From positions 1-44,884 of the forward strand of contig JALWKO010000047.1 of NCBI GenBank assembly GCA_027081405.1: a stretch of 44,884 nt of DNA. The letters are read 5' to 3'. The position numbers and the translations under genes were made by a program. Below the pieces are notes generated by a model, which saw only the letters and a program-made list of their open reading frames with translations, had not been told where the DNA came from and searched no databases. Shown piece after piece: positions 4,249 to 35,461 of this stretch. Origin of the DNA: Campylobacteraceae bacterium (GTDB lineage: Bacteria; Campylobacterota; Campylobacteria; Campylobacterales; Sulfurovaceae). The first letter of the stretch is position 1; every line of letters starts with the position of its first letter.

Positions 4249-5059
4249 CTTCTTCCCGGTCGAGGATATAGCAAAAGCGCAGCCCGTGGAGGAAAATCGC
4301 CCAGGAGATGTAGATCCAAAGAAAGAAAAAGAGCAGCGTCGAAAGCCCCCCGTAGATCGTCGTGTAGGTTTTGTTGTAGGTGATGTAGAGGACGAAGCCG
4401 CTTTTGGCCAGGTACCAAATCAGCGAGGCGATGAAGGAGCTCAGAAGTACGGCCCGGGGAGAGACCCGGGTGCGGGGGGAGAACTGGTAGGCGATGTAAA
4501 ACAGAAGCCAGATGATCAAATAGGGCAGGACGAAATAGATATGCAGCGTCCCCGCCACCCCCATCGACTCAAGATAGCTTCGGATCCATCCCGAGAGCCA
4601 GAACGACCCCCCCAACATCGGAGGGAGGAGCAGAAGGAGGAAAAAATAGGTCCGAAACGCCTTGAGAGCGGACCGTTTGGGGGTCTCGAAGATGTCGTTG
4701 ACGATGAAGTCGTAGTCTTTGAAAAACAAAATCGCCGCGATCGTGACGTATCCGATGCCGATGTATCCCAGCTTGTCGGCATTGGCGACGAACTCGTCGA
4801 TGTAGCGCATCACCGTTTTGGTATCGGAGGTGACGAGGTTCTTTTCGATCAGCTCGTGAAGCTGGGCGTAGGCGGTGTCGAAGAGCGGCAGATGGGTGAA
4901 GAGCACCAGCAAAATCACCAGAAACGGCACGATGAAAAAGAGGGTACTCCAGCTCATGCTCGCCGCGTAGAACCCCAGCCGGTCGTCGAAGAGATCTTTG
5001 AAAAAATCCCGGATGAAGAGCCAGTATTCCTTGATCAGTGTCCGCTTGCCTCTCAGCAT
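4232..5059 (-). CDS. YihY/BrkB family inner membrane protein
   Basis: 275 residues with about six hydrophobic segments. The N-terminal GFYAASMSWSTLFFIVPFLV, the LFFKDYDFIVNDIFETPKR block and the C-terminal YGGLSTLLFFFLWIYISW are hallmarks of this family, once named ribonuclease BN by mistake. Role unknown; a transport role in the inner membrane has been suggested for relatives. The start at 5059 lies just beyond the left arm of the four-helix-bundle element, and a small open frame reading through that arm ends over its first codons (ATGCTGA). Confidence 0.88.
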   Translation of the reverse strand: MLRGKRTLIKEYWLFIRDFFKDLFDDRLGFYAASMSWSTLFFIVPFLVILLVLFTHLPLFDTAYAQLHELIEKNLVTSDTKTVMRYIDEFVANADKLGYIGIGYVTIAAILFFKDYDFIVNDIFETPKRSALKAFRTYFFLLLLLPPMLGGSFWLSGWIRSYLESMGVAGTLHIYFVLPYLIIWLLFYIAYQFSPRTRVSPRAVLLSSFIASLIWYLAKSGFVLYITYNKTYTTIYGGLSTLLFFFLWIYISWAIFLHGLRFCYILDREEDDDGC

Positions 5060-5277
5060 GGAGCACCCTTCGTATCGAACACAATGAGAAATGAGAAATG
5101 AGAAATGAGAAATTTCGGTACGCGTTGCTGCGCAACGCCGTTATCCAAAAAGAAATTTCCAGCACAATCTTCCGAAATTGCCCCGGGATCATCTATCCGA
5201 TCAGCAATCGGTACGTGAAATGATCGAATATCGGCAAAGCATTTCCCAAAACTTTTCTGATTTATTGCGCCGAACAT
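5053..5277 (-). CDS. Possible read-through ORF across the element arm into yihY
   Basis: A 74-codon frame starts at ATG 5277, overlaps the end of the four-helix gene by 16 bases, passes through the left arm (encoding FLISHFSFLI) and stops at 5053-5055, overlapping the yihY start. It resembles no family that I know. It is placed as tilS is in the second element: starting at the end of the four-helix gene and open through the arm. It may serve only to carry ribosomes to yihY. Confidence 0.25.
   Translation of the reverse strand: MFGAINQKSFGKCFADIRSFHVPIADRIDDPGAISEDCAGNFFLDNGVAQQRVPKFLISHFSFLIVFDTKGAPC
5082..5115. repeat. Left heptad arm of element A
   Basis: Four units of AATGAGA (5083-5110) then AATTT. 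It is the inverted partner of 5628-5661, with 32 of 34 bases complementary. On the coding (minus) strand of the element this arm reads CATTTCT and contains no stop codon in any frame. Confidence 0.9.
5122..5138. other. Perfect hairpin inside element A
   Basis: GCGTTGC, loop TGC, GCAACGC. GAAATTTC occurs on both sides (5109-5116 and 5152-5159). No T-run follows, so a terminator is unlikely. Confidence 0.5.
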
Positions 5278-5645
5278 GACTGCTTCACTGTTTTGGTGCT
5301 TGAAACAAGGAGTTTGATCAGTTCTTCGCAATCCGGGAGGATACTTTGCAGATACGAATCATTCAAATAGCCGGAACCATGTAGGAGCATCAACCAATAA
5401 CGCGTCTCGTTTGCCTCCTTGAGAGCTATCGTGAGTTTGGTGAGAAAATCGGCTTTGGACTGGGCAAAATGGGATTCCTGGATCATCGCTCCGATCGCGG
5501 TTCCACTGCGAAGTAACTGTTTACTGAGAATGAACTCTTTTTGGTTCTGATTGAGATATTTGCTCAGATCGACGATGCGGAGTGCAAACTCGTAGCTTTT
5601 GGAACTCAATGTATCCCGTCGAATTCCAAATTTCTCATTTCTCAT
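5262..5645 (-). CDS. Four-helix-bundle protein, 23S rRNA intervening-sequence protein family
   Basis: 127 residues from ATG 5645, which lies inside the right heptad arm; the first residues MRNEKF are encoded by the repeat. Core motifs are SKSYEFALRIVDLSKYL, ILSKQLLRSGTAIGAMIQES, SKADFLTKLTIALKEANETR and YWLMLL, as in the S23/IVP family (PF05635, TIGR02436). Relatives sit in intervening sequences of 23S rRNA or act as Avd accessory proteins of diversity-generating retroelements, forming pentamers; their exact role is unsettled. It is about 60% identical by hand alignment over 110 residues to the protein at 13712-14080. A start at 5675 upstream is possible but would lie in the topA coding region. 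Confidence 0.9.
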   Translation of the reverse strand: MRNEKFGIRRDTLSSKSYEFALRIVDLSKYLNQNQKEFILSKQLLRSGTAIGAMIQESHFAQSKADFLTKLTIALKEANETRYWLMLLHGSGYLNDSYLQSILPDCEELIKLLVSSTKTVKQSCSAQ

Positions 5646-5661
5646 TTCTATTTTCTCATTG
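5628..5661. repeat. Right heptad arm of element A
   Basis: On the minus strand: C, AATGAGA, AAATAGA, AATGAGA, AATGAGA, AATTT. The first unit holds the topA stop TGA (5658-5656), and a later unit holds the start of the four-helix gene. Confidence 0.9.
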
Positions 5662-7860
5662 CGAAGCTTCGGCAACCGCCTCCCTGTGCTTGCACTTGAA
5701 GCACTCGTAGACCTCTTTGCCCCGGTAGGTCTTTTGCCCCATCAGGTAGCCGCACTCCGGGCATTTTTTGTTCACCGGTTCGAAATTAGCGATGAACTTG
5801 CATTTGGGGTAGTTAGAGCAACCGAAAAAGGTCCCCCTCCTCCCCTGGCGCTCGATCAGCTTCCCGCCGCACTCCGGGCAGGGAACCTCCAGTTCTCTGG
5901 GGGGAGTGAGGGGTTTGGCGTTTTTGCATTTGGGGTAGGCGCTGCAGGCGAGGAATTTCCCCCGGCGGGAGTTTTTGATCACCATCGGAGCACCGCATTT
6001 GTCGCAGACCTCGTCGGTAGCCTCGGGCTTCTCTGATTCAGTGCCGTCGAGATTGCGGCTGTAACGGCATTTGGGGTAGGCGCTGCAGGCGATGAACTCC
6101 CCGTAGCGTCCTTTGCGCCGTACCAGCTCCGCGCCGCACTCGGGACACTGCTCCCCGATGGGTACCGCGGTTTTGAGCGATTTGATCGTCTTTTTCCCCT
6201 CCTCGATCTTGGCGATGAACGGTTCGTAGAACTCCCGGAGGATCTTTTGCCAGTCCTCTTCGCCGGCGGCGATCCGATCCAGGGTCTCCTCCATCCGGGC
6301 GGTGAAATTGCTGTCGACGATCTCGGGGAAATGCTTCTCGAGCATTTCGATCACCGTGAAGGCGATCTCGGTGGGGTGGATCCGCTTCTTTTCGATCTCG
6401 ATGTATTTGCGGTTCTGCAGGATCGTGATCGTCGGGGCGTAGGTGCTGGGGCGTCCGATCCCCAGGGATTCGAGTTTCTTGATCAGGCTCGCCTCGGTGT
6501 AGCGGGCCGGCGGTTCGGTGAAGTGCTGCTCGGCTTTGACGTCGCTGAGCTCCACCGGCTGACCCTCTTTGAGCTCGGGGAGGAGCTTGTCTTTTTCGTT
6601 GTAGCCGAGCACCCGGTAGTATCCGTCGAAGACCAGCTTCCGGCCGGTGGCTTTGAAGACCGACTTCTCCCCGGCAAAGAGGATCGTCTGGGTTTCGAAC
6701 TCCGCATCGGTCATCTGGCATGCCAGGAAGCGGTTGTAGATGAGCCGGTAGAGTTTGAGCTCGTCGGCCGCCAGATACTTGGCCGCCATTTCGGGGGTGA
6801 ATTCCACCATCGTGGGGCGGATCGCCTCGTGGGCCTCCTGGGCCCCTTTGGCCTTGGAGGCGTAGACTTTGGGTTTGGGGGGGAGATAGTCGGATCCGAA
6901 ATGTTCGGAGATGAATCCCCGTGCCGCCGCGACCGCCTCTTTGGCCAGGTTGAGGCTGTCGGTCCGCATGTAAGTGATCACCCCCATCGTCCCTTTGTGG
7001 GTCTTGACCCCTTCGTAGAGCTTTTGGGCGATCATCATCGTCCGCTTGGGGGAAAAGCCCAGCTGGGTCGACGCGGCCTGCTGGAGGGTCGAGGTCATAA
7101 ACGGAGGCGGCGTTTTGCTCTTGCGACGGGCGGTTTCGATCGACGCCACCGTGAAATGCTCCCCTTTGGCCGATTCGACGATCCGGCGGGCGTCGGCTTC
7201 GGTTTTGAGGGTCATTTTCTCGATCTTTTGCCCTTCGAAGCTGTAGATGTCGGCTTCGACGCTTTTTTGGAAGATCCCCCGGATGGTCCAGTACTCCTCG
7301 GGTTTGAAGGCTTTGATCTCCCGCTCCCGGTCGACGACGAGTTTGAGCGCGGCGCTCTGAACCCGTCCGGCTGAGAGTCCCTTCTGGATCTTGCTCGCCA
7401 GGAGGGGGGAGAGTTTGTATCCGACGATCCGGTCGAGCAGGCGGCGGGTCTGCTGGGCGTCGACGCTCTGCATGTCGATCCGCCGGGGATTCTCCAGCGC
7501 ATGACGGATGGCGCTCTCGGTGATCTCGTGAAATACGATCCGGGGAAGCTGTTCGGGATCCTTGCCGATCGCTTTGGCGATATGGTAGCCGATCGCCTCC
7601 CCCTCCCGGTCCTCGTCAGTCGCGATGTAGACGGTTTCGGCCTCTTTGGCCAGCTTTTTGAGCTCTTTGACGGTGGGGGAGGCCTCTTTGGGGATCGTGT
7701 ATTTGGGGATGAATTTCCCCTCCTCGATGGTGATGCCGAAACTGCTTTTGGGGAGATCGCGGATATGCCCTTTGGAGGCGACCACTTTGTAGTCTTTGCC
7801 CAGAAAGTTTCCGATGGTACGCGCCTTGGCCGGCGACTCGACGATGATGAGATTCTTCAT
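5656..7860 (-). CDS. topA: DNA topoisomerase I
   Basis: 734-residue type IA topoisomerase that relaxes negative supercoils by passing one strand through a break in the other. The TOPRIM domain opens the protein (MKNLIIVESPAKARTI, acidic motif ATDEDREGEA at 80-89); the catalytic tyrosine is Y297 in GVITYMRTDS. From about residue 595 come four C4 zinc ribbons: three end in a CS.YPKC pattern and the last, CPECGYLMGQKTY...CFKCKH, ends two residues apart from a plain tail. Length and domain order are as in E. coli and Campylobacter enzymes. The last codons, EASQ, are followed by a TGA that belongs to the heptad arm of element A, so the original 3' end may have been slightly changed. Confidence 0.97.
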   Translation of the reverse strand: MKNLIIVESPAKARTIGNFLGKDYKVVASKGHIRDLPKSSFGITIEEGKFIPKYTIPKEASPTVKELKKLAKEAETVYIATDEDREGEAIGYHIAKAIGKDPEQLPRIVFHEITESAIRHALENPRRIDMQSVDAQQTRRLLDRIVGYKLSPLLASKIQKGLSAGRVQSAALKLVVDREREIKAFKPEEYWTIRGIFQKSVEADIYSFEGQKIEKMTLKTEADARRIVESAKGEHFTVASIETARRKSKTPPPFMTSTLQQAASTQLGFSPKRTMMIAQKLYEGVKTHKGTMGVITYMRTDSLNLAKEAVAAARGFISEHFGSDYLPPKPKVYASKAKGAQEAHEAIRPTMVEFTPEMAAKYLAADELKLYRLIYNRFLACQMTDAEFETQTILFAGEKSVFKATGRKLVFDGYYRVLGYNEKDKLLPELKEGQPVELSDVKAEQHFTEPPARYTEASLIKKLESLGIGRPSTYAPTITILQNRKYIEIEKKRIHPTEIAFTVIEMLEKHFPEIVDSNFTARMEETLDRIAAGEEDWQKILREFYEPFIAKIEEGKKTIKSLKTAVPIGEQCPECGAELVRRKGRYGEFIACSAYPKCRYSRNLDGTESEKPEATDEVCDKCGAPMVIKNSRRGKFLACSAYPKCKNAKPLTPPRELEVPCPECGGKLIERQGRRGTFFGCSNYPKCKFIANFEPVNKKCPECGYLMGQKTYRGKEVYECFKCKHREAVAEASQ

Positions 7861-12394: not shown

Positions 12395-13708
12395 ATGAAA
12401 AAAACCCTCCATCTGGTCAGCCTGGGCTGCACCAAAAACCTGGTCGACAGCGAAGTGATGCTGGGCAAACTGGCCGACTACGATCTCACCGACGACGCCT
12501 CTCGTGCCGATGTGATCATCGTCAACACCTGCGGCTTCATCGAAGCGGCCAAAGAAGAGTCGATCGCCACGGTACTCGAGCTCCATCAGCAACGCAAATC
12601 CGACTCCCTGCTGGTCATGAGCGGCTGTCTGAGCGAACGGTACAAAGAGGAGCTCTCGGAGCAAATGCCCGAGATCGACATTTTCACCGGGGTAGGCGAC
12701 TACGAGCGGATCGACGAGCTGATCCGCCAAAAGCGCAGCAGCTTCAGCCCCGAGGTCTACTTGGCCACCGAACGCTCCCCCCGCATGATCACCGGCTCCA
12801 ACTACCACGCCTACATCAAGAGCGCCGAGGGGTGCAACCAGAACTGCTCCTTTTGCGCCATCCCCGGTTTCAAGGGTCGTCTGCACTCCCGCACCCTCGA
12901 TTCGATCGTGGCGGAAGTGTCGGCCCTGACCCAGAAGGGATTCTACGACTTCAGCTTCATCTCCCAGGACAGCTCCAGCTACGGGCGGGATCTGGGGCTT
13001 CGAGACGGTCTGATCGATCTGATCCGCCACGTGGAGATGATCCCGGGGGTCCGCAGCGCCCGGATCCTCTACCTCTACCCCAGCACCACGAGTCTGGAAC
13101 TCATCGACGCCATCGCCGAGAGCCCCATCTTCCAGACCTACTACGACATGCCGATCCAGCATATCGACGATACGATGCTCAAGATCATGAAACGGGGCTT
13201 CGGCGAGCCCAAAACCCGCGAACTCCTGGAGGCGATGCGGGCCAAGGAGGGGGGCTTCGTGCGCACTTCGGTTATCGCCGGCCATCCGGGGGAGAGTGAG
13301 GAGAGTTTCCGAAAGCTCTGCGATTTTCTGCAGGGCTTCGGCTTCGACCGGATCAACGTCTTTGCCTACTCCCACGAGGAGGATACCGCCGCCTTCGACA
13401 TGCAACAGCTCCCGCCGGAAGTGATCGAGGAGCGCACCGCCGTCCTGGGGGAGATCGCCGCCCGCAGCCGCGAAGCGTCGCTGGAAAAGATGATCGGCCG
13501 GGAGTGTCGCCTGGCTATCGACGGCCCCAGCAGCGAGCACGAATACCTCCTCTCCGCCCGCCCGCTACTGTGGGCCCCCGAAATCGACGGAGAAGTCCTC
13601 GTCAACGACACCAACGACCTCGACGTGAAGATCGGCGGACTCTATCGGGGGAAGATCACGGAGAAAGCGGGGGAATACCTGCTCGCAACATTGTTGAATG
13701 AGGAATGA
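12395..13708 (+). CDS. rimO: Ribosomal protein S12 methylthiotransferase
   Basis: 437-residue radical SAM enzyme that puts a methylthio group on Asp88 of S12. The N-terminal cluster cysteines are C12, C46 and C78; the radical SAM cysteines are C147, C151 and C154 in GCNQNCSFC. A TRAM-type C-terminal domain follows from about 370. SLGCTKNLVDSE and the TYYDMPIQHI block are characteristic of RimO as opposed to MiaB. The last residues LLNEE and the stop TGA (13706-13708) are encoded by the heptad arm of element B, so the native end has been replaced or trimmed by a few residues. Confidence 0.96.
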   Translation: MKKTLHLVSLGCTKNLVDSEVMLGKLADYDLTDDASRADVIIVNTCGFIEAAKEESIATVLELHQQRKSDSLLVMSGCLSERYKEELSEQMPEIDIFTGVGDYERIDELIRQKRSSFSPEVYLATERSPRMITGSNYHAYIKSAEGCNQNCSFCAIPGFKGRLHSRTLDSIVAEVSALTQKGFYDFSFISQDSSSYGRDLGLRDGLIDLIRHVEMIPGVRSARILYLYPSTTSLELIDAIAESPIFQTYYDMPIQHIDDTMLKIMKRGFGEPKTRELLEAMRAKEGGFVRTSVIAGHPGESEESFRKLCDFLQGFGFDRINVFAYSHEEDTAAFDMQQLPPEVIEERTAVLGEIAARSREASLEKMIGRECRLAIDGPSSEHEYLLSARPLLWAPEIDGEVLVNDTNDLDVKIGGLYRGKITEKAGEYLLATLLNEE

Positions 13709-13730
13709 GGAATGAGGAACGAGGAACCGA
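13694..13730. repeat. Left heptad arm of element B
   Basis: TT, then GAATGAG three times, GAACGAG, GAACCGA. It is complementary to 14091-14127 at 35 of 37 bases. It contains the rimO stop (13706-13708) and the start of the four-helix gene (13712), with AGGA at 13701-13704 at good ribosome-binding distance from it. Confidence 0.92.
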
Positions 13731-14080
13731 AAAGGAGCGATCCTTTAGGCGAAAAAAGTTTTGCATTTGCACTGAGAATCGTCAGACTCGGGAAATTCCT
13801 GAAAGAAACCCATCGAGAATTCATCATTTCCAAACAGATTCTTCGCAGCGGTACTGCTATCGGGGCACTCGTTGCGGAAGGAAAATATGCCCAATCCAAA
13901 GCGGATTTTCTCCACAAATTGTCAATCGCCCTCAAAGAGGCAAGCGAAACGGAATACTGGCTACGGCTCCTCAAAGAATCACGATACATTGATGATACAA
14001 TGTTCCACAGCCTATATAAAGATTTGGACGAACTCCTCCGTCTACTCATCGCAAGCACAAAAACGATCAAGCAAGCATGA
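13712..14080 (+). CDS. Four-helix-bundle protein, 23S rRNA intervening-sequence protein family
   Basis: 122 residues. ATG 13712 lies in the array, three bases after the rimO stop, which suggests coupled translation; MRNEEP is encoded by the repeat. Family motifs are EKSFAFALRIVRLGKFL, ISKQILRSGTAIGALVAEG, SKADFLHKLSIALKEASETE and YWLRLL. Its stop TGA (14078-14080) overlaps the tilS ATG as ATGA. See the paralogue at 5262-5645 for what is known of the family. Confidence 0.92.
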   Translation: MRNEEPKRSDPLGEKSFAFALRIVRLGKFLKETHREFIISKQILRSGTAIGALVAEGKYAQSKADFLHKLSIALKEASETEYWLRLLKESRYIDDTMFHSLYKDLDELLRLLIASTKTIKQA

Positions 14081-15084
14081 ATACCATCCATCGGTTCCTC
14101 ATTCCTCATTCCTCGTTCCTCATTCAAGGAAAATGCCTTCTGGCTTTTTCCCACGGTCTGGATTCCACCGCCCTCTATCACCTCCTGCGTGAATCGGGGA
14201 TCGATTTCGACGTGGCGCTGGTCAACTACGGGATCCGGGAACAGGCCGACGAGGAGGAAGCGGCGGCCAGAGAGCTGGCGGAGCGGGACGGACGGCGGAT
14301 CTTCGTGGCGCATGCGCCCCGCATGACGAGCGATTTCGAAGCCAGGGCCCGGAAATTCCGCTACGATTTTTTCGAATCGCTCATCGAGAAGCACGGTTAC
14401 GACACCCTCCTGACCGCCCATCAACTGGACGATCAACTCGAATGGATGCTGATGCGTATGATCCGGGGGGCGGGAGCGGCCGAACTGGCGGGGATGGAGC
14501 CGGTCAGCCTCCGCCGCACCCCGTCAGGCCATGCGTACCGCATCGTACGGCCCCTCCTGGAGGTTCCCCGCGCACAGCTGCGCCGCTATCTGCAAGAGCG
14601 GCGGATCGGATGGTTCGACGACGTGGAGAATGTTGCGGGGACAAACGAGCGGAGCCGGATCCGGCCGCTGGCTGCGAAACTGATGAAAGGGAACGAAACG
14701 GGGATCGCCCGGAGCCTGGAGTATCTGCGCCGGGACCGGGAACGGCTCCGATCGGGGGGGCGGCTCCTTTACAGCCGTGACAAGCTGCGGATCGTGGAGA
14801 TTGACAGCCCCGACAACCTCGTCCGCATCGCCGATACACAGCTCAAAGAGCTGGGCTATCTCATGAGCCGTTTCGAGCGGGAGCGGATCGAGCGGGACCC
14901 CTCGACGGTTCTGGGGCGGCGCTGGGCGGTCGAACGGAGGGGGAATCGGCTCTTCATCGCCCCCTGGGTGCCGGGCCTCGTCCTCCCCAGGCGCTTCCGG
15001 GAAGCGTGCCGCAGGGCGGGAATCCCCCCCAAGATCCGCCCCTGGCTCTACCGGAAGGGGATCGACCCTCAGGAACTTTTGTGA
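14077..15084 (+). CDS. tilS: tRNA(Ile)-lysidine synthase
   Basis: 335 residues. TilS changes C34 of the CAU-anticodon tRNA-Ile to lysidine so that it reads AUA. The ATP pyrophosphatase motif is SHGLDS at 25-30 (usual SGGxDS), followed by VALVNYGIREQADEEE and the AHQLDDQLEWMLMRMIRGAG block. It is shorter than the E. coli enzyme, as in relatives. Between 14090 and the motif there is no in-frame ATG, GTG or TTG, so translation must start at 14077, inside element B, and the first 18 residues are element-derived. ATGA overlap with the four-helix gene points to translational coupling. It overlaps rdgB tail to tail by 16 bases. Confidence 0.93.
   Translation: MNTIHRFLIPHSSFLIQGKCLLAFSHGLDSTALYHLLRESGIDFDVALVNYGIREQADEEEAAARELAERDGRRIFVAHAPRMTSDFEARARKFRYDFFESLIEKHGYDTLLTAHQLDDQLEWMLMRMIRGAGAAELAGMEPVSLRRTPSGHAYRIVRPLLEVPRAQLRRYLQERRIGWFDDVENVAGTNERSRIRPLAAKLMKGNETGIARSLEYLRRDRERLRSGGRLLYSRDKLRIVEIDSPDNLVRIADTQLKELGYLMSRFERERIERDPSTVLGRRWAVERRGNRLFIAPWVPGLVLPRRFREACRRAGIPPKIRPWLYRKGIDPQELL
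14091..14127. repeat. Right heptad arm of element B
   Basis: TCGGTTC, CTCATTC, CTCATTC, CTCGTTC, CTCATTC, AA. In this orientation it has no stop codon in any frame, and it encodes residues RFLIPHSSFLIQ of TilS. Confidence 0.92.
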
Positions 15085-33965: not shown

Positions 33966-34042
33966 CGGAAACGAAAAATCGGTATCATTCCGGATAGAGT
34001 TTCCTTTTTGGAAGGAAATATTCCCTTTTTCAGGATCCCGTG

Positions 34043-35119
34043 ATGGAAATACTCGACGCGTTTTTGAGCCAACGTCCCGGAAACGACCGTTACTTCCCCC
34101 GCAAGCTCCGTCTCCCCGACGAGGGGAATTTCGCCCTCTCGGGACCCCGGGGCTGCGGAAAAACCGCCACGGTGCTCGACTGGCTCTCCCGGAGAGAGGA
34201 GCCTTCTCTCTATCTCGATGCCCAGGATCCCCTCTTCGCCCTAGAGGACATCGACGTGGAGGAGCTGGAAGGGTTTCTCGCCGAGGAGGAGATCGAAACG
34301 GTGGTGATCGACCACTGGTACGACGGATTTTTGGAGCGGCTTCCGCGGGGGGTCCGAGTGGTGCTGGTCGGACGCCTCCCCCCCGATCCGAAGCTGGGGC
34401 TTGAGCGGCTGAGGCTCCACCCCCTCGATTTCGAGGAGTTCCTCGCCTTCGACCGGAGCCACTCCCCCACCCAGAGCTTCGACCGCTTCCTTCGGCTAGG
34501 GACGCTTCCGGCGGTGAGCCGCTCGAGTATTCCGAGCGCCCCTTTGCGGCTAAGGGAGCTCTTTTTCGAGAAATTCGACGAAGCCGAAAGCCGGCTCCTC
34601 CTGATCCTGGCCCGTTTCCAGGGGAGGCGGGCGACGACCCATCAGCTCTATACCGTCGCACGGGACTATTTCCGGATCTCCAAGGACTGGACCTACCGCA
34701 CCATCGCCCGTTTCGAGGAGGAGGAGGTCCTGCTCCGGCTGGAGAACCTCGGCCCTGCTTCGGGGAAAAAGGTATATCTCTACGATTTCGTCCTCAGCCG
34801 CTACCTCAACAAGTTCCAACCCTTCGCCGTCACCTTCGACTCGATGGTGGTGCTGGCCCTGCACAAACACCGGATCCCCTTCGGAGCCTACGGCAACTTG
34901 GGGTACCGCCTCCTGGAAGAGGATACGCTGATCGTATCTATCCCTTTCGAAGGGGAGGAACAGTTTTGGAAACGGGCCCAGGGGCGCTACGGGGAGTTTC
35001 ACAAAAGCGGCGCGAAAAAAGTGGTGGCGGTCACCGTCTCCAACCGCTTCGATTTCACCGTCGGGGAGATCCGTTTCGAGGGGCTGCCGTTTTACGAATG
35101 GAGCGTACTGAATGAATGA
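34043..35119 (+). CDS. ATP-binding protein (AAA-type, conserved in Campylobacterota)
   Basis: 358 residues from ATG 34043 (a GTG one codon earlier is possible), preceded by AGGATC. The P-loop is GPRGCGKT at 34-41; the Walker B candidate is VVIDHW near 88-93; an arginine-containing RVVLVGRLPP follows. The C-terminal half has a winged-helix-like segment (TTHQLYTVARDYFRISKDWT) and a nuclease-like fold pattern (RLLEEDTLIVSIPFE). It resembles DUF4143-type ATPases. I recall a homologue beside rpsJ in Helicobacter. The end LNE and the TGA stop come from a heptad arm. Role unknown. Confidence 0.8.
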   Translation: MEILDAFLSQRPGNDRYFPRKLRLPDEGNFALSGPRGCGKTATVLDWLSRREEPSLYLDAQDPLFALEDIDVEELEGFLAEEEIETVVIDHWYDGFLERLPRGVRVVLVGRLPPDPKLGLERLRLHPLDFEEFLAFDRSHSPTQSFDRFLRLGTLPAVSRSSIPSAPLRLRELFFEKFDEAESRLLLILARFQGRRATTHQLYTVARDYFRISKDWTYRTIARFEEEEVLLRLENLGPASGKKVYLYDFVLSRYLNKFQPFAVTFDSMVVLALHKHRIPFGAYGNLGYRLLEEDTLIVSIPFEGEEQFWKRAQGRYGEFHKSGAKKVVAVTVSNRFDFTVGEIRFEGLPFYEWSVLNE

Positions 35120-35134
35120 GGAATGAGGAATTTT
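35110..35134. repeat. Single heptad arm at the end of the ATPase gene
   Basis: GAATGA, ATGAGGA, ATGAGGA, ATTTT. It is of the left-arm type and supplies the stop TGA of the ATPase gene (35117-35119). No partner arm or four-helix gene follows within the space before the SRP RNA gene. Confidence 0.75.
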
Positions 35135-35190
35135 GCTTGGATGTTCGGAGATGTCAAGAAAAAAGTGAGCGATCGATCATGAAAGCACCT

Positions 35191-35288
35191 TCCGCCAGAT
35201 GGCTGCGGCACCCGGAACGGAAGGGTGGGCTGCTATGTTCCCATCCTGACCCGGTGTCCTTCCGACCCGTTGCACAGGTCTGGCGAAA
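35191..35288 (-). ncRNA. ffs: Signal recognition particle RNA (4.5S type)
   Basis: About 98 bases on the minus strand. The ends CGCCAGA and TCTGGCGG pair. The core has GGTCAGG, GGAA and AGCAGCC in the right order for the Ffh-binding domain IV hairpin. It is a short bacterial form without Alu domain. SRP RNA with Ffh guides membrane proteins to FtsY and SecY. A T-run (35163-35158, minus strand) about 30 bases beyond may end it. Confidence 0.9.
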
Positions 35289-35373: not shown

Positions 35374-35461
35374 AGAGAGGTGGCCGAGTGGTCGAAGGCG
35401 CACGCCTGGAACGCGTGTAGGGCGCAAGCCCTCGTGGGTTCGAATCCCATCCTCTCTGCCA
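35374..35461 (+). tRNA. tRNA-Ser (anticodon GGA)
   Basis: AGAGAGG pairs with CCTCTCT; anticodon loop CTGGAAC; long variable arm; T loop TTCGAAT; discriminator G and encoded CCA. It reads TCC and TCT. Confidence 0.97.

Follow-up and report, generated by a model that had tools for sequence, protein, structure and literature searches.

The window, by which we mean the whole 44,884-nucleotide stretch analysed here (contig JALWKO010000047.1 of a Campylobacteraceae bacterium), contains five arrays of an AATGAGR heptad, two of which, at 5083–5110 on the plus strand and 14097–14124 on the minus strand, are right-hand inverted partners that face the starts of yihY and tilS. The first pair bounds Element 1, a 580 nt insertion (5082–5661, minus strand) between topA (5656–7860, minus strand; Pfam Topoisom_bac) and yihY. 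Its left arm (5628–5661, minus strand) consists of the units CAATGAG, AAAATAG, AAATGAG, AAATGAG and AAATTT and contains the topA stop codon, and the inverted copy that forms the right arm (5082–5115, plus strand) lies 23 nt ahead of the yihY start at 5059. The two arms match each other with a score of 58, compared with at most 32 for a match to any other locus. Between them lies an IVP gene (5262–5645, minus strand) encoding a four-helix bundle protein of family PF05635 (Pfam, 90.2 bits); its reading frame is open from 5675, and its start is likely the ATG at 5645, inside the arm.

Element 2 (434 nt, 13694–14127, plus strand) lies between rimO (12395–13708, plus strand; Pfam UPF0004, Radical_SAM and TRAM_2) and tilS, and has an arm score of 64. 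Its left arm, TTGAATGAGGAATGAGGAATGAGGAACGAGGAACCGA (13694–13730, plus strand), contains both the rimO stop and the ATG of the IVP gene at 13712, which has GAGG 8 nt upstream. The IVP gene (13712–14080, plus strand; PF05635, 96.2 bits) ends with a TGA that overlaps the ATG of the tilS ORF, and the inverted right arm (14091–14127, plus strand) lies within the tilS reading frame. The tilS ORF (14077–15084) starts at this overlapping ATG and runs through the right arm, and the heptads may encode the N-terminus of TilS (IPHSSFLI).

Both junctions are found empty in congeners. At topA–yihY the stop is followed directly by the ATG in G001 and overlaps the start in G010; at rimO–tilS an IVP gene is present in G000, G001, G002, G007, G009 and G011, absent from G003, G008, G010 and G012, and represented in G005 by an array remnant. 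The first-pass annotation had proposed that an element could enter at the end of a gene without blocking the operon, and these junctions bear this out, in that the arrays bound a true insertion. The heptads at rimO vary between species (AATGAGG, AACTAGT and CCGAGTAA). We considered pure in-place turnover of the heptads at this site and rejected it, because the IVP genes at rimO fall into two lineages that are not sisters in the IVP tree; part of the variation is therefore due to replacement or to movement of elements between the rimO and topA sites.

Three of the window arrays coincide with a stop codon, as the first-pass annotation had observed with correct coordinates. The topA TGA (5658–5656) is inside the first unit of the minus-strand array 5660–5633 (AATGAGA, AAATAGA, AATGAGA, AATGAGA), the rimO stop (13706–13708) is inside the second unit of an array that runs from 13697 to at least 13717, and the stop of an ATPase ORF (35117–35119, plus strand) is inside the first unit of the array 35115–35128; each of the three genes runs in the same direction as the AATGAG strand of its array. 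We counted 8 occurrences of AATGAGRAATGAGR in the window, where none is expected (100 shuffles), and the 15-mer AATGAGRAATGAGRA occurs 112 times in the genome to which the window belongs, compared with 0 for the reversed control. A three-unit pattern was matched in 10 of 41 genomes, namely 8 of this genus (its own included) and 2 of other genera of the family. The coincidence at three places out of three holds for the window and is typical of arrays bounding an IVP gene, but it does not extend to the genome at large, where a same-strand gene stop lies inside only 9 of 63 AATGAGR arrays examined and within about 14 nt for 14. Most of these arrays are solo, with neither an IVP gene nor an inverted partner, and are mostly not at stops. 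Where an array is near a gene edge, the gene lies 5' of the AATGAG strand in 31 of 32 cases, as expected for the outer ends of inserts; 23 of these 31 are at gene 3' ends and 8 are upstream of a start.

The ATPase array is one of the solo kind (35115–35131, plus strand; AATGAGG units), situated at the end of a gene (34040–35119, plus strand) with a weak AAA_14 match below cut-off and followed by a bacterial small SRP RNA gene on the opposite strand (35189–35286, minus strand) and a tRNA (35374–35458, plus strand). The conserved C-terminus of the ATPase, SILNE-stop, is encoded by AATGAATGA and is kept in most congeners with or without an array, so that the array must have begun at an unchanged native stop. 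In G010 (L132) the ATPase stop is TAG, accompanied by GAATAGG units, and sister species have AATGAGG and TGA at the same point.

The elements follow a general plan of a heptad arm, an IVP gene (S23/PF05635 four-helix bundle) and an inverted heptad arm, with a length of about 430–580 nt. Both window proteins belong to the family, exceeding the cut-offs for PF05635 (23S_rRNA_IVP; 33.8 bits) and for TIGR02436 (24 bits, with scores of 100.6 and 96.2). RNA folding of the window elements pairs the arms (z -7.1 for Element 2 and -5.5 for Element 1), and, as in rRNA intervening sequences (IVSs), the terminal inverted repeats can form one long stem around the ORF. The window copies lie between protein genes, outside the 23S rRNA gene, and we therefore class them as IVS-like and not as 23S IVSs.

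Among 13 congeners we found 51 IVP loci, at few recurrent junctions: trpB, hldD–hldE, emrA–emrB, rho–murI, rimO–tilS, topA–yihY and priA–ispG (names beyond the Pfam matches were read from the sequences). Arms of the same locus match with a median score of 48, versus 18 for arms of different loci, and the best period is 7 in 37 of 41 arms. The heptads follow the IVP tree, though they differ between species at one junction, and between different loci IVP similarity correlates with arm similarity (coefficient 0.24, reached in 0 of 1000 permutations). The heptad thus tracks the IVP lineage even across loci, which indicates that it belongs to the element. At two junctions, rho and priA, the insertion lies behind an unchanged host stop. 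The Rho end EFLSIMNEGA-stop (with one G/D change) is present in all 12 congeners in which a Rho end was found, 8 of them occupied and 4 empty, and this identity places the insertion exactly after the stop.

The means of movement is not apparent from resident genes. We found no target-site duplication such as DDE-type MITEs or insertion sequences leave, the outer flanks sharing no more direct repeats than mismatched flanks, and no RVT_1 domain, as expected of a diversity-generating retroelement (Avd-like), either in the genome that holds the window or among the array-rich congeners. The distribution of Y1 genes, the RAYT transposases on which REPINs depend, does not follow that of the arrays: they are absent from the array-rich G002, G006, G007 and G009 and present in the array-less G003 and G008. 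Mobilisation by a resident reverse transcriptase or Y1 transposase was rejected, since neither gene is consistently present.

We then have a wider sample of 80 further loci, chosen as the best matches to one IVP subfamily and hence not an unbiased one, from Bacteroidota, Clostridia, Gammaproteobacteria, cyanobacteria, Acidobacteria, Campylobacterota and a CPR genome. The same architecture and inverted pairing recur across these phyla, with a median arm of about 32 nt, a median span of 462 nt and a best period of 7 in 72 of 74 measurable arms. The arm match exceeds the 99th percentile of mismatched pairs in only 29 of the 80 loci because many lineages share similar A-rich heptads, and in this set the period and the position beside an IVP gene are stronger evidence than the arm-match score. 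Host junctions that could be read directly include argC–argD, rsgA–dtd, glyA–nrdR and a diphosphomevalonate decarboxylase-like gene (named by sequence reading), and an Rfam scan of 16 wide loci lacking a close host stop placed none in rRNA.

The left arm starts between -12 and +14 nt from a same-strand stop in 40 of 77 wide elements, compared with 10.5% of random intergenic or near-stop positions (p about 1e-19) and 1.5% of any position; this null leaves out selection against inserts in genes, and either tolerance or active targeting of stop codons may account for the figure. The gene calls rest on ORF length and codon score, the position of an arm edge may be off by a few bases, and some loci are homologous. 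With a left neighbour on the same strand (62 elements), the stop is inside the arm in 31, with a peak at +2 to +5, and where the right-hand gene runs towards the element, its end in most cases lies 2–7 nt inside the right arm. Placement is therefore not indifferent to host stops, and the proposed link between array starts and stops survives the wider survey; the coincidence is real and general for IVP elements.

Many host ends also carry a hairpin. In the 60 nt before the left arm, a hairpin scoring at least 9 is present in 18 of 46 genus elements (39%), compared with 3 of 187 other gene ends (2%) and 0 of 138 shuffles, and in most of these elements the host coding sequence forms its left half. 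At L035, L098, L080, L159, L092 and L161 an inverted copy of the last codons of the host lies directly after the stop and before the arm. The copy matches each species' own codons: at rho it is CCCTCGTTCAT where the gene end is ATGAACGAGGG plus one codon, and GCCGCTTCATTCAT where the gene end is ATGAATGAAGGGGC, and priA has further matched versions of gene end and copy. The empty sites at rho and priA have no inverted copy of the host end. Among the wide loci, L215 and L216 carry inverted host-end copies that form hairpins of 26 bp and 22 bp, and the threshold is reached in only 6 of 75 elements. Template switching between inverted copies makes such arms match (PMC8604942), and we infer that it is the source of the host-end copies.

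We think it somewhat more probable than not that the arrays form the inverted ends of a small element of the IVS family, which, with or without its IVP gene, sits at operon junctions and starts at the upstream stop or no more than a few codons from it; that is, an IVS-like family with heptad arms that lives at gene ends and is probably mobile. The first-pass annotation offered a different reason for an array to begin at a stop, namely that it is a selected, frame-independent stop and restart on entry, with an open linker at the exit side. The frame arithmetic behind this proposal is sound, since every frame of (ATGAGGA)n contains a TGA and no frame of TCCTCAT contains a stop, and Element 2 fits it in every detail, with the rimO TGA, the IVP ATG and its GAGG, and tilS read through the right arm. 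More stop frames are found on the entry than on the exit strand in 57 wide elements, versus 5 with the reverse, and 50 of 74 wide arms have stops in all frames on entry. However, the entry (inward) strand of wide arms is A/G-rich and C-poor (C 6%), and heptads permuted by column to the same composition yield the same frequencies: 43.8 ± 3.6 for all-frame stops on entry, and 17.8 for the 18 of 41 observed in the genus. Likewise, the right arm has no stop in any frame in 34 of 74 wide elements (null 31.2 ± 3.4) and in 23 of 41 genus elements, equal to the null. Stop-codon enrichment as a selected property of the heptad was rejected on these grounds. Moreover, many arms, such as those of TATTGGT, ATTTTGG and GTCGTTT, lack all-frame stops, families without entry-side stops are found at emrAB, rho and hldD, and the palindromic ACTAGT arms place stops on the exit too. 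A Shine-Dalgarno sequence and start inside the arm are rare (10 of 123 elements), and the rho and priA genes end at their native stop before the arm begins, which leaves no need for a stop in the arm. The stop coincidence does not have the look of a translation switch built for the purpose. Element 2 does carry a real gate; as a general rule we regard the gate as unlikely.

The heptads might instead have grown by slippage from the local stop-codon sequence and been recruited later as element ends. Species that lack an array at the ATPase gene conserve the native AATGAATGA, the units follow the stop codon in use (GAGGAAT with TGA, AGGGAAT with the TAG of G010) and in G011 (L135) the array has expanded to about 20 AATGAGG units; likewise, rimO in G009 carries AATGAGGAAGG without AATGAGG arms. 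Slippage alone does not give arms that match as inverted repeats, however, and from locus to locus the heptad family tracks the IVP lineage, with the same period of 7 across phyla; we regard this origin as quite unlikely. We find it very improbable that the arrays are regulatory sites kept by the host, whether sites for an RNA- or DNA-binding protein or 3'-end or attenuator signals. Hairpins do lie at the host stop, TAACTGA heptads of Beggiatoaceae have been proposed as translational control sites (PMC4679880), and a solved PF05635-type protein is, to judge by a reference title (PMC3936711), an assembly of five four-helix bundles, making one subunit per heptad conceivable; against this, presence varies between congeners at the same junction, with heptads that are unrelated and hosts that have no function in common.

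For an IVS-like element of this kind, the arms would pair in the transcript into a stem of about 30 bp that, by analogy with 23S rRNA IVSs, could be cut by an RNase III-type enzyme. Since the upstream ORF would already have ended and the gene downstream would have its own ribosome-binding site or an open arm, both neighbours would stay functional, and gene ends would thus be the places that tolerate insertions. A host frame hit a few codons early would be closed by the inward strand, poor in C and rich in stops, as a by-product of arm composition with no dedicated gate involved. Template switching (quasipalindrome correction) likely keeps the arms matched while the heptads change, and likely also makes the inverted copies of the last host codons beside the stop.

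Much of this resembles described systems in part. The Coxiella burnetii 23S IVS (428 nt, with a 28-bp terminal stem, an S23p ORF, GACAGAT heptads and RNase III cleavage; PMC4990558) is similar in size, terminal inverted repeats and four-helix ORF and has tandem GACAGAT heptamers at its 5' end, whereas the loci described here lie between protein genes at stops and have heptads that form both arms and vary by lineage. TAACTGA heptamers in Beggiatoaceae, cyanobacteria and Bacteroidetes (MacGregor 2015; PMC4679880) are, like AATGAGR, intergenic 7-nt direct repeats with all-frame stops forward and none in reverse, some overlapping upstream stops, so that this property of heptads was already noted there; AATGAGR shares these features and not all arm families do. 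In the accessible sections of that paper the repeats are described as direct, with a single indirect one, and neither an IVP gene nor an inverted-arm element is mentioned. TIGR02436 four-helix bundle genes have been reported in operons, as in gmk–IVP–nadD of Flavobacterium columnare (PMC5524665) and in 18 cases in cas loci (PMC3936711), that is, the same family between unrelated genes, but described there as ordinary genes, with no arms or element boundaries. REP/REPIN and MITE-type elements (PMC3116915) are small, dispersed, intergenic and hairpin-forming, as are the IVP-less copies here (e.g. L038:3067-3319). Two inverted arms become identical through quasipalindrome template-switch mutation (PMC8604942, PMC7202029), as in the arms and host-end hairpins described above, although this is known as a mutation process and not as part of a mobile element. 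No description of an IVP gene with heptad arms was found in the open-access papers searched.

More speculatively, and with clearly less than even confidence, we suggest that IVP genes across bacteria could be the cargo of one ancient selfish family with period-7 inverted arms, which inserts at stops, moves with its own heptad 'dialect' and copies the last host codons in inverted form, so that once the element is excised from the mRNA the host transcript would finish with a hairpin of its own. A very common 'four helix bundle protein', whose role is unknown, would then stand at the centre of a mobile element that can be recognised by its fixed architecture, and the intervening sequences of 23S rRNA would be one particular form of elements found mostly at the ends of protein genes. 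Such a family would join the scattered reports of bacterial heptamer repeats and give a testable rule for where inserts are tolerated, with the inverted host-codon copies as a measurable footprint of element entry or evolution.

Other forms of the repeat occur in this genome and its relatives. Many of the stretches L037–L073 carry composite intergenic repeats in which an AATGAGA array is followed by AATTTCGG, a GCGTTGC/GCAACGC hairpin and further heptad families (GTGAGGA, GACTAGT, CCAAAAT and TGGATTT). The copy at L038:3067-3319 is a MITE-like form of 253 nt, with both AATGAGG arms and ACCGAA inner ends and no IVP gene, and is preceded by a 38-nt perfect palindrome. A single pure AATGAGG array of about 13 units is located at L064:3096-3186, and this array and that of about 20 units in L135 are candidates for slippage between strains.
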